Part shown: piece by piece, positions 52,214 through 56,704 of the stretch
How the letters are laid out: each line of letters starts with the position of its first letter
Numbering within the stretch: position 1 is the stretch's first letter
NCBI RefSeq assembly: GCF_000196175.1
Contig: NC_005363.1
Location: 2,294,001 to 2,358,000 of the forward strand
Length of the DNA: 64,000 nucleotides
Source: Bdellovibrio bacteriovorus HD100
GTDB taxonomy: Bacteria > Bdellovibrionota > Bdellovibrionia > Bdellovibrionales > Bdellovibrionaceae
Direction: 5' to 3'
Notes under the pieces: model-generated
Told to the model about the DNA's origin: nothing
The model's database searches: none
The model's input: the letters and a program-made list of their open reading frames with translations, nothing else
Program-made: the position numbers and the translations under genes

Positions 52214-53105
52214 AAATCGCGCGGCCGTTGAGCTGATCTTCGCCGGAGTCCTTTGGGGCTTCGGCTTTGTCGCCACCGTCTGGGCTCTGGAGGCTTTTTC
52301 TCCGGTAGAGACCCTGTTCTTCCGTTTCGTTATCGCCTCTGTCGTGGGCGAAATTCTGTACCTGATCCTCAAAGGCCCGAACTTCACCAGCCTGCGTGAA
52401 GAGATCTTCCGTGCCCTGCCCGCCGGGCTTTTGCTGGGCGGAATGCTGCTTTTGCAAACCATCGGCCTGAAATACACCACCGCCACCAAGAGCGGATTTT
52501 TGACCAGTCTTTATGTGATTTTGGTGCCACTGTTCAATGCGTGGTTGTTCAAGTCTCCAAGCAGCTGGAAAAACTATGCCCTGACGGCCCTGGCCCTGGC
52601 CGGGACATTCGTTCTGGTGAATGCCAACTTAAGCGGTATCAACACCGGGGACCTGTGGACCCTGGGCTGTTCGGTGTTTGCGGCCTTTCATATTATTTAC
52701 ATCGGAAAAATTTCGAACAAGGTCGGCAACGCTTTTCGTTTTAACAATTTTCAATCGGCGTGGTGCCTGCTGGCACTGACACCTTTGTTGCTGACTCAGG
52801 AGCGCTCGGACTGGAACCTGCTAAGTTATAAACCCCTGCTGGGAATTTTATGCCTGGGGCTGGGTTCCAGCATTATCGCTTTTTACCTGCAAATCCGCAC
52901 GCAAAAAGTCCTATCAGATTCCACCGCCAGCATGCTGTTTTTGCTGGAATCACCATTTGCGGCACTGTTTGGTTTTTTGATTTTAAGCGAACGCCTAAGC
53001 TGGTTCCAGGCCTCCGGAGCCGTGATTATCATGATCGCCTCTGTCCTGCAGATCGCGGTCGACCCCGGACAGAAGCCGCAAGAAACCACTAGTCCACGCG
53101 TTTGA
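52170..53105 (+). CDS. EamA/DMT-family transporter
   Basis: A 311-residue integral membrane protein with ten helices in two EamA repeats (first repeat beginning ELIFAGVLWGFGF, second TLGCSVFAAFHI). DMT proteins export or import small metabolites. The ATG at 52170 overlaps the reductase gene by 44 nt; a TTG at 52206, with a nearby GAGG, is an alternative start that would remove 12 residues. The C-terminal part (FGFLILSERLSWFQ) is the usual family ending. The gene's last 17 nt overlap the convergent fibre gene. Confidence 0.85.
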   Translation: MVLTKQESGPRRLTKNRAAVELIFAGVLWGFGFVATVWALEAFSPVETLFFRFVIASVVGEILYLILKGPNFTSLREEIFRALPAGLLLGGMLLLQTIGLKYTTATKSGFLTSLYVILVPLFNAWLFKSPSSWKNYALTALALAGTFVLVNANLSGINTGDLWTLGCSVFAAFHIIYIGKISNKVGNAFRFNNFQSAWCLLALTPLLLTQERSDWNLLSYKPLLGILCLGLGSSIIAFYLQIRTQKVLSDSTASMLFLLESPFAALFGFLILSERLSWFQASGAVIIMIASVLQIAVDPGQKPQETTSPRV

Positions 53106-56100
53106 TTTGCATGGTGCCATTATAGGCGGGAACCGCATAAACGAGGTCCGCCGCCATGGTGTTCACTGGGGCACCGCAAGTAATCAGATCATTGGCGCTA
53201 AGGGTGCCCATAAAATTGCTTTCCGTATAGCTGCCCGAGTACGCGGTATGACTGTGATTCCAAAGAACATCGTTGCGACTTTCCAGTGCGGTACGATCGC
53301 CATTTAAGGCGATCCCCACATAAACACTGTTCCCGCTGGTCCCGGCTCTTTGCACACAGCGAATTTCATAAGTCCCGGCCTTCAAGATGCGACAGCCCGT
53401 GGTGCTGGTGGTGCAATCAATACTGCTGCCCACATGATATCCCGAGTTCCAAACATTGATGTAGTTTGCACTAAAGGACGTTGGGCCTCTTTTAATCCCC
53501 CAGCTGCGCACGCTGGTGATTTCACCGCTGACAGCAACGTTCCCCTGCACATTCAACTTTTCTGTGGTGGTGGTGGTTCCGATACCGACGTTCCCGGTAT
53601 TGCTGATCCGCATGGCCTCGCCAGCGCCACCAACATGAAACTGCAAATTGGTTTTAACCGCTGTGGTGAAGTTTTCTTCCGCAACAGAAAGAATCTGACC
53701 GGACCCCATCCACGCGGTTCCGTTCCAACCACGGAACAACACGCCCCCCAGTCGGTCACCGGTCTGCACCGCTGCCGGCGCCGAAGCAGTGCCCCGCGCA
53801 CGCAGCATAATCAGCGACGAGGTCTCAGTTGCCCCGTAAGTTCTGATGTTAAGATCATCCCGGTTGTCATCTCCCGTGGCATTGTTCACGATATCCAAAC
53901 CACCCACAGGCACTGCCGTACCGATCCCCACGTAGCCGCTGTTGTTGATGCGCATTCGCTCAGTCAACGCATTCGTGTTGTTGGCGGCTGTCATAAAAGC
54001 CAGTGCTCCGCCGGCCCCGGTTGTGGTGGTGTTTTGTTCCGCATAGGAAATAATTCGCGTCGATGCCGAAGTCGCCCGGGCGCCGCTTTCATTTGTGCCG
54101 TAAAAATTCATCTGCCCCAGGCCTTTGCCGGACAAACTCTGCGCTGCCGGAGTCCCTTCCGCGGCAAAATAAGTGCGGAAATCAAGTCCCGCCCCCGCAC
54201 CCGTCCCCGCATCATCGCGACGCTGGATATAGATGGAAGCACCTTCATAGCTTGTCCCAATGACATCCAACGCCCGCGTCGGCGCACTGTTGCCGATACC
54301 GACAAAGCCGTTGTTGTGAATGCGCATATGTTCTTTGCCCGTAGAGGCGTTGTAGGACTTAAACACCAGCGCGTGGGTGCCGGCATAGTTTTCATGTTCC
54401 AAACTGAAACCATTTCCCGGCAGCCCGCTGGACGCCCCATCGGAGGCAAAGCCCAGCACACCGGTGACTTCACCCGCGTCGGCCTGCCCGTTGGTGTTGT
54501 CACCGTTGATGATCAAATAAGCGGTGGCCGGATCATTGATGCGCACTTTGCTGGCCACATCCAGATTCACTCCCGGAGAAGCCACGCCCACGCCGACATT
54601 CCCCGTCGCACGGGAAACATGGCCACCCGACGCTGTCCACAGAGCATCCGTGATTGAGGTTGGCAATCTTGCCGCTGCCAGTGTTCCCGAAGTGATGTTA
54701 GCTGCATTGGTCGTATCCGTCGTTGCTGACGCCGCCAAGGAGGGAAAGTTTGAAATTTGCGCTGTCGTGACAGAGATCGCCACACAAGACAGCGTGTCCC
54801 CCACAGAAGACCATGTCAAAGTCTGCCCCGCCGTGCAACCGACCCCTGAAAGAGCCGCCGCGCCCGTGACCGAAGACCTCAGATCCATCATCGACACAAA
54901 CCCCGGGGTCCAGGTGTCTGCGCCTGCATAACGCAACATCTGGCCTGTAAGCGAGCCCGCCGCACTGACAGCCTGCCCGCGAATCCCGACAACATCAGCA
55001 TCCGCCAGTGTGCCGGACAAATCCCCCGCCAGCGCTGTGCTGGCCTGGAAAGCCCCCGTGATACGCGTGTCATTGCCTTGCGCTGCGGTCCCGGCAGCGG
55101 TGCCATAGCTGACCGTCAGCTGATTGGAACCGTTCACACTCAACCCCGTGCCCACGGTGTTTTTCGCAAACGCCTGCACGGTGGGGTCCACCTCGGCGGA
55201 AAGCCCGGCATCCGCAGCGCACTTCCAGCCACCCGCACCGCTGTTCAATGTCGAATCATACTTCAACAACTGATTGTCAGCGCACGCGGAGTTGCCAGGT
55301 TTGTAGTTTAGGTACAAACCCGCTCCATTTAAAATCTTATTCACTGAAATTCCGGCCAACATCGTATCAGCGAAGGTGCCGGTGGTGATTTGTGAAGCAC
55401 TCAAATCAGGAATCTGTCCCGCGGCCAGACTGATCTGCGCAGACGGGATTTTCCCGCCGGCATCCAGTGAGGCCAGTCCATTGTTGGCACCTTTTTGAGC
55501 GGTGATACGCGCATCCAAGGCGGCGTTGAAGTCTGTGATATCGGCCGCTTCCAAGGTCACATTTCCGGTTTTCCCCGCCACTTGCGAAACTCCACCCGTG
55601 ACCGTTTGCCAGGTGCCGTCCCCACGCAAGTAGGTTGTTGCATCAGCAGTCCCCGTTGGTGTCATTGCCGCCAAGGGGCCCAGCCCCAGATTGGTGCGGG
55701 CGCCAGCAGCGGTTGTCGCTCCTGTTCCGCCATTGGCGACAGCAACGGTTCCTGAGACATTGGTGGCCGTTGCGGCATTGCCAGAGATATTGGCACTTAA
55801 ACCCGTACCGTCGGCGGTGAAACGATTCAAAATTTCATTCAGCTTTGAAAAGCGGCTGAAGATGCTTTCGGCATTTCCCTGAGTCAGACCCTGTCCCGCA
55901 TTCACATTCACCAGATCCGTATCTGACTTCCCGTTCAGGGTTTCAGAGTTCACGGCATAAGCCATCGAGCGCAAGTTAAAGTCTGCCACCACCGGAGTAG
56001 AGTCAATCATCAGACTCATGCGGAATTTTCGCGCGCCACTGCCCGCAGCCGGATTGAAAGACGTCACTGCCCCATTGACCGTGCCATCCAGATTCAGACA

Positions 56101-56430
56101 GGTCAGCCCCGAGAGCGTGACGGAATTATCCATCACCTTGGCCATTGTGAACGACGGATCATAGCCCCCGGTGGCACCGGTTCCCAAGGCCAGATTGATA
56201 TACCCGTTGGAGATGTTCACACCTGTGAACTGTTCTTCACGCAGAATGCAGTTGTTCGGAGAAAGGATGCGGGCATTCACCGTCACGCCCACGCGCGTGG
56301 GATACTCACCACTGGGAAGTTTGATGACGCCTTGAAAACTGATGCCTTTATGGCTTTGTGCGAACACTGTTGGCGACACAGAAAGCAAAAGTGGTACAGC
56401 TAAAACACGCAAGAATGCTGACTTACTCAT
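53089..56430 (-). CDS. Fibre-like surface adhesin (mosaic adhesive trimer type)
   Basis: A 1113-residue exported fibre from the ATG at 56430 (GGAAGGGG 6 nt upstream). Signal peptide ends at FAQ. Residues ~20-180 resemble a conserved head (GVTVNARILSPNNCILREEQ). The shaft has phage-fibre repeats: GTVAVANGGTGATT, YGTAAGTAAQGNDTRITG, and at least four VGIGxxxPxxxLDV-type motifs (about residues 600-1000). The tip (~990-1113) has C1q/TNF-like features: GTYEIRCVQRAGTSG, YVGIALNGD, and four cysteines. Bdellovibrio uses this fibre class (MAT proteins) for prey recognition; that function is known for the class, not shown here. It overlaps the small lipoprotein gene by 8 nt. Confidence 0.85.
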   Translation of the reverse strand: MSKSAFLRVLAVPLLLSVSPTVFAQSHKGISFQGVIKLPSGEYPTRVGVTVNARILSPNNCILREEQFTGVNISNGYINLALGTGATGGYDPSFTMAKVMDNSVTLSGLTCLNLDGTVNGAVTSFNPAAGSGARKFRMSLMIDSTPVVADFNLRSMAYAVNSETLNGKSDTDLVNVNAGQGLTQGNAESIFSRFSKLNEILNRFTADGTGLSANISGNAATATNVSGTVAVANGGTGATTAAGARTNLGLGPLAAMTPTGTADATTYLRGDGTWQTVTGGVSQVAGKTGNVTLEAADITDFNAALDARITAQKGANNGLASLDAGGKIPSAQISLAAGQIPDLSASQITTGTFADTMLAGISVNKILNGAGLYLNYKPGNSACADNQLLKYDSTLNSGAGGWKCAADAGLSAEVDPTVQAFAKNTVGTGLSVNGSNQLTVSYGTAAGTAAQGNDTRITGAFQASTALAGDLSGTLADADVVGIRGQAVSAAGSLTGQMLRYAGADTWTPGFVSMMDLRSSVTGAAALSGVGCTAGQTLTWSSVGDTLSCVAISVTTAQISNFPSLAASATTDTTNAANITSGTLAAARLPTSITDALWTASGGHVSRATGNVGVGVASPGVNLDVASKVRINDPATAYLIINGDNTNGQADAGEVTGVLGFASDGASSGLPGNGFSLEHENYAGTHALVFKSYNASTGKEHMRIHNNGFVGIGNSAPTRALDVIGTSYEGASIYIQRRDDAGTGAGAGLDFRTYFAAEGTPAAQSLSGKGLGQMNFYGTNESGARATSASTRIISYAEQNTTTTGAGGALAFMTAANNTNALTERMRINNSGYVGIGTAVPVGGLDIVNNATGDDNRDDLNIRTYGATETSSLIMLRARGTASAPAAVQTGDRLGGVLFRGWNGTAWMGSGQILSVAEENFTTAVKTNLQFHVGGAGEAMRISNTGNVGIGTTTTTEKLNVQGNVAVSGEITSVRSWGIKRGPTSFSANYINVWNSGYHVGSSIDCTTSTTGCRILKAGTYEIRCVQRAGTSGNSVYVGIALNGDRTALESRNDVLWNHSHTAYSGSYTESNFMGTLSANDLITCGAPVNTMAADLVYAVPAYNGTMQIKRVD

Positions 56431-56704
56431 AGAAGGCCCCTTCCACCTGCACGCCATTGGCCAGAACCTGTTTTTCCGATATTTCGCCGAAACTGCCGGT
56501 GATCACAACGCCGTTTCCGGTGGTCACGATTTCACCTGCGACAAAGTCGGTTTCAGTTCTTTGGGTTTTCATATCCGGAGCCGGCGGATCTTTGAGAATT
56601 TCAGGAAGCAGGGAGATATTAGCTTCCATCGAGCAGGCCGTTAAGGCCGCAACCAGGGCCAAAGCCATCAATGCTCTTGCTGTCATTTCATAGACTTGCG
56701 CCAT
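56423..56704 (-). CDS. Small lipoprotein coupled to the fibre adhesin
   Basis: A 93-residue lipoprotein with lipobox LTAC (Cys24). The mature ~70 residues are polar, with DFVAGEIVTTGNGVVITGSFGEISEKQVL, a glycine-rich repeat-like stretch that resembles short strands. GAGGA lies 4 nt before the ATG at 56704. Its end overlaps the adhesin start by 8 nt, so the two are translated in step; it may anchor, stabilise or export the fibre. No named family is recognised. Confidence 0.7.
   Translation of the reverse strand: MAQVYEMTARALMALALVAALTACSMEANISLLPEILKDPPAPDMKTQRTETDFVAGEIVTTGNGVVITGSFGEISEKQVLANGVQVEGAFYE

Follow-up and report, generated by a model that had tools for sequence, protein, structure and literature searches.

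The lipoprotein gene directly upstream of the mosaic adhesive trimer (MAT) adhesin gene Bd2439 in Bdellovibrio bacteriovorus HD100 is the new part of this locus, its product being a member of a widespread family not described before. Members of this family recur beside MAT genes and covary with the base of the fibre rather than with its tip. The stretch analysed (the window) comprises 64,000 nucleotides of the HD100 genome (2,294,001 to 2,358,000), and positions below are those of the window, on the reverse strand, unless given as HD100 coordinates. Adjacency above chance, coupling of the two genes, covariation with base and not tip, and independence of tip type are the grounds on which the lipoprotein is regarded, with good confidence, as having some functional partnership with the fibre base. 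Its more specific role would, with slightly better than even confidence, be that of a dedicated anchor of the Bd2439 base at the outer membrane.

The adhesin and the interpretation of its tip are already known, and a curated NCBIfam model exists for its base. Both ORFs described in an earlier sequence-only reading of this DNA were confirmed, namely the longest adhesin ORF (1122 aa, 53089 to 56457) and that of a 93 aa lipoprotein (56423 to 56704). Adhesin residues 852-1122 (1122-aa numbering) are 100% identical to crystallised Bd2439 (PDB 8ol4, 8onf), and the gene is therefore Bd2439 of HD100. The features that define a MAT fibre (the N-terminal domain behind a signal peptide, capping-loop motifs with a fibre-like shaft, and a TNF-like tip) were all found. 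Residues 24-186 score 116 bits against the NCBIfam model Bdello_MAT_N (NF053851; cut-off 60), and this fibre base, the proposed docking site of the lipoprotein, lies at 55900 to 56388. The shaft is phage-fibre-like, as had been noted, being matched by PHROGs tail-fibre models (1.6e-14), and the VGIG-type motifs of the earlier reading were located as four VG[IV]G...L capping-loop motifs at residues 621, 719, 843 and 957. The trimeric tip (53092 to 53505; PDB 8ol4, 8onf) contains a GlcNAc pocket and four cysteines (residues 1015, 1022, 1034 and 1094). Its description as a four-cysteine C1q/TNF-like end thus held for the cysteines and the TNF-like fold, but the C1q-like comparison applies to the sister fibre Bd2734 and not to Bd2439 (PMC10769870). 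That the tip sets target specificity had already been published, its ligands being GlcNAc and the O-antigen of Proteus mirabilis OXK (PMC10769870). The same study found no predation defect on deletion of Bd2439, and its Discussion (2024) reports no structural homologue for the MAT N-domain and expects the domain to bind a surface element not yet identified (PMC10769870). Using our own N-domain profile, 21 MATs were identified in HD100, the number given in PMC10769870.

The start of the adhesin gene had also been read as overlapping the lipoprotein gene, and an overlap is indeed present, but its length differs with the start codon preferred. The automatic start scorer chose ATG 56457, which gives an overlap of 35 nt; this start was dropped in favour of ATG 56430, located 6 nt downstream of the putative ribosome-binding site GGAAGGGG (56437 to 56444) and probably the true start, as judged by manual reading of the sequence. 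Bd2439 would then occupy 53089 to 56430 (1113 aa), the published 1107-residue numbering corresponding to TTG 56412, and the real overlap would therefore be the 8 nt ATGAGTAA (56423 to 56430), holding the lipoprotein stop and the adhesin start. Among 54 lipoprotein-MAT pairs, 26 overlap and a further 21 lie within 60 nt of each other, with an overlap of exactly 8 nt in at least 19 of the 54 by the scorer, or 21 when Bd2439 and the locus at 2463 kb are read manually. The ribosome-binding site is situated within the lipoprotein gene, on the codons of the conserved C-terminal EG(A/V)FYE. The ribosome site GAAGGAG and the start ATGAATAA overlie the EG.FYE and stop codons, which makes part of this C-terminus dual-coding, and conservation of the lipoprotein C-terminus is thus partly forced by the overlapping signals. 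A consensus promoter scan and an Rfam scan of the Bd2439/lipoprotein region found nothing.

The lipoprotein has a clear lipobox (LTAC) as expected of a signal peptide II, with the signal peptide ending LTA|C, the lipobox cysteine C24 at 56633 to 56635 and a mature N-terminus of CSMEANI. At this terminus the signature C-S-x-[ED]-A-[SN]-[IL] is common to most of the family, whose mature layout consists of a predicted lipidated cysteine, a variable linker of 15-30 residues and a C-terminal domain of two units of ~20 residues (G[YV].V.G..GE type). In the Bd2439 partner this domain covers residues 52-93 (56426 to 56551), with repeats NGVVITGSFGE and NGVQVEGAFYE at a period of 19 (p 0.002). When 54 lipoproteins were tested for internal repeats, 37 showed a significant C-terminal tandem repeat (~19-22 residues; p<0.05). 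Family members are real proteins under purifying selection, as those coupled HD100 lipoproteins whose divergence was measurable gave dN/dS values of 0.095-0.30 (HD100 paralogues compared with relatives). A form of ~200 aa precedes Bd3182-type fibres in HD100 and seven relatives, and has a region, Ig-like as judged by eye, inserted between lipobox and repeats.

Searches with the lipoprotein returned no family from Pfam or NCBIfam and no relative by sequence from the PDB. A PHROGs match to an Rz-like spanin (E 0.011), which covers the signal-peptide half, was dismissed as signal-peptide similarity, and two Companilactobacillus loci from a scan of genome contigs with the single lipoprotein were spurious. 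AlphaFold2 models made without an alignment were unusable (pLDDT 57 for the lipoprotein and 41 for the N-domain). Among the open-access papers searched, none names Bd2440, the presumed tag of the neighbouring lipoprotein gene, and the word lipoprotein never occurs in the main text of PMC10769870, the part searched; excerpts of the literature on MATs or Bdellovibrio adhesins and lipoproteins do not describe this pair.

Searching HD100 with the single lipoprotein gave three other matches, all adjoining MAT genes (two directly upstream, one directly downstream). Six of the 21 HD100 MATs have an upstream lipoprotein, namely Bd2439, Bd2734, Bd2740, Bd3182 and the MATs at HD100 2458757-2463742 and 682443-688322, with no such gene directly upstream of the other 15. 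A profile (A1) was built from six HD100 lipoproteins, five of which are directly upstream of a MAT, and of its 80 matches in the genus, 48 are followed at no more than 300 nt by a MAT N-domain in the same orientation (binomial P ~1e-77). As A1 was made from MAT-adjacent proteins and is possibly biased, a wider profile (A5) was run on 45 genomes outside the genus, where 16 of the 30 matches examined stand directly upstream of a MAT (P ~2e-25), one of these pairs being in another family of the order. Chance would place about 0-1 matches there (below one in each of the two sets). A genome of a different family (G036) holds one MAT with an upstream two-repeat lipoprotein that the profile missed. 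The earlier reading would have failed had homologues never been located next to fibre genes; instead, the same pair was found at other fibre loci far above chance, both in the genus and in other genera. The family is nevertheless not exclusive to MATs, since 32 of the 80 genus matches and 14 of the 30 outside stand elsewhere, some with no MAT near.

Open frames that match the lipobox signature and lack the repeat domain (735 aa at G022:885128, 1133 aa in G001:C12 and 1126 aa in G018:C8) have no MAT nearby, indicating that the signature by itself is not associated with MATs. Very large surface-type lipoproteins (L159, L165, L166) also have the N-terminal signature CxxxAxI without the repeat domain, and this signature may serve more generally in the sorting of Bdellovibrio lipoproteins. 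Other MAT classes (L201, L203, L177, L181) are preceded by larger, different-looking lipoproteins of 180-267 aa, which suggests that lipoprotein-MAT pairing extends beyond the tandem-repeat family.

Mapping of the coupled label on a tree of 99 N-domains required 8 changes, compared with 31.8 for shuffled labels (0 of 500 shuffles). As the lipoprotein C-terminus is partly dual-coding, the key test of covariation was redone without its last 8 residues, and the pairwise divergence of the repeat domain still followed that of the MAT N-domain (rho 0.635; 0.583 within genomes). Correlation of the repeat domain was lower with the 200 aa after the N-domain (rho 0.418) and not significant with the tip (rho 0.008), and the lipoprotein linker gave -0.065 against the N-domain within genomes. 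For comparison, inside the MAT itself the N-domain gave 0.47 with the adjoining 200 aa and 0.07 with the tip, and a separate gene that matches the N-domain better than the adjoining part of the MAT does is more than linkage by itself would probably produce. The tips of the six coupled HD100 fibres are TNF-like (two), C-type-lectin (one), S74 (two) and of another type (one), those of the two fibres without Bd numbers having been judged by eye from C-terminal sequences; the lipoprotein pairing is independent of tip type. Covariation with base and not tip points towards the assembly or anchor partner that the sequence-only reading had proposed, and lends that proposal support.

In the mechanism proposed, the 93-aa lipoprotein would be exported by Sec, lipidated at C24 and placed at the outer membrane, from which the linker would reach to the C-terminal two-repeat beta domain. 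This domain would dock on the trimeric N-terminal base of the MAT and hold or assemble the fibre on the predator surface, with the variable tip binding prey glycans. Translational coupling would allow base and anchor to be made together, and each base-domain branch would tend to have its own cognate lipoprotein. Counted against the anchor are the 15 of 21 HD100 MATs without an upstream gene, the 32 and 14 family matches found elsewhere, the covariation that joint inheritance of linked genes can produce, the C-terminal conservation partly imposed by the overlapping signals, and the absence of a predation defect when Bd2439 is deleted (PMC10769870).

Among the alternatives, that of an assembly or export factor survives best, although it appears rather unlikely; here the lipoprotein would be a periplasmic pilot or chaperone, acting transiently at the MAT base during secretion or trimerisation and absent from the mature fibre. 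A helper translated together with the MAT would suit an overlapping gene placed upstream, covariation with the base fits as well because the N-domain would be the contact either way, and lipid anchoring is typical of pilotins. None of the evidence cleanly separates such a factor from an anchor; the spacer inserted in the ~200-aa lipoproteins that precede Bd3182-type fibres would look more like a structural tether. It is improbable that the gene is a neighbour by descent, encoding a surface lipoprotein unrelated to the fibre and carried along as MAT cassettes are duplicated and transferred. Physical linkage by itself yields correlated trees, as linked genes can covary through joint inheritance without contact, and about half of the family is located away from MATs; yet the pairing recurs in several outside genera and several N-domain lineages, the within-genome signal is carried by the repeat domain and not the linker, and the lipoprotein correlates with the N-domain more closely than adjacent MAT parts do with each other. 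Least probable is a translational leader, a small ORF that mainly couples or tunes MAT translation and whose product contributes nothing to the fibre. The MAT start codon and its ribosome-binding site do lie inside the ORF in a fixed geometry, but the protein is under purifying selection, its lipobox is conserved, its repeat domain is conserved in uncoupled genes too, and the covariation survives removal of the last 8 residues.

With anchoring as the preferred reading, the 15 HD100 MATs without their own upstream gene either use a shared lipoprotein or need none. A strongly conserved relative of the lipoprotein is encoded at HD100 3191019-3191369. Of the 21 Bdellovibrio genomes that have class I ('SLTYQGRI') MATs, 20 carry it, G017 being the exception, and none of the three genomes lacking such MATs does (Fisher p 0.002, uncorrected for phylogeny). 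It adjoins class I MATs in most of those genomes, and may serve MATs that have no lipoprotein of their own. A modular display, in which a cognate tandem-repeat lipoprotein for each divergent base type and the shared 3191019-3191369 protein for the large 'SLTYQGRI' class mount trimers with swappable tips on the predator's outer membrane, is suggested tentatively, at somewhat less than even confidence.

Further features were observed at these loci. In nearly all genomes the shared type-B lipoprotein is followed by a conserved secreted protein of ~230 aa ('VDVRRNITLSEDD..'; L023:12318-13184, HD100 3191317-3192186), which has no Pfam family and a weak match to GltG. A divergent lipoprotein of ~210 aa with the same C-terminal repeats is located ~2 kb from the short MAT Bd2872 (L020; HD100 2780126-2780758 and 2781638-2783518), and in one genome (G004) a lipoprotein of this type lies directly upstream of a MAT. 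Bd2872 was required for predation in Tn-seq (PMC6561027). Two MAT and lipoprotein loci have a divergently transcribed regulator (L018:6648-7466, HD100 2464147-2464968; L019, HD100 681196-681930), the former belonging to TIGR02147/DUF4423 and the latter similar by eye, with a secreted protein following each.

Comparison with known systems begins with the published MAT fibres (Bd2439, Bd2734, Bd2740 and Bd3182; PMC10769870), of which this adhesin is itself one, with the same N-domain, capping-loop motifs and TNF-like trimeric tip, whereas the main text of that study describes no lipoprotein partner. The type V fimbria anchors FimB/Mfa2 of Porphyromonas are likewise lipidated, encoded in a surface-fibre gene cluster and proposed to hold the base, but Mfa2 has two beta-sandwich domains of fimbrillin fold, while the HD100 lipoprotein has ~70 mature residues, a tandem repeat and no family match (PMC5789003 for FimB/Mfa2). 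An N-terminal lipobox and a gene adjoining the fibre gene are shared with these anchors; membership of their two-beta-sandwich sequence family was not found in the Pfam, NCBIfam and PDB sequence searches, and the type V fimbria is a polymer whereas the MAT fibre is a single trimer. Rz/Rz1 spanins also feature an overlapping small lipoprotein gene, but the MAT locus is chromosomal and without an inner-membrane spanin partner or lysis cassette, and gene order at the lipoprotein locus revealed no Rz1-type nesting or pairing with an Rz inner-membrane gene. Phage tail-fibre chaperones of the Tfa type are similarly encoded by a small gene overlapping or adjoining the fibre gene. These chaperones act on the fibre tip and their genes are usually downstream, whereas the MAT partner is upstream, predicted to be lipidated, and covaries with the base and not the tip.

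The recurrent, covarying lipoprotein provides a small, named candidate for the surface element that holds MAT fibres, and eight HD100 genes of its family can be named as candidates for deletion or tagging. Lipoprotein mounting, if true, would explain how MAT fibres can exchange their tips and still fit their mounting.
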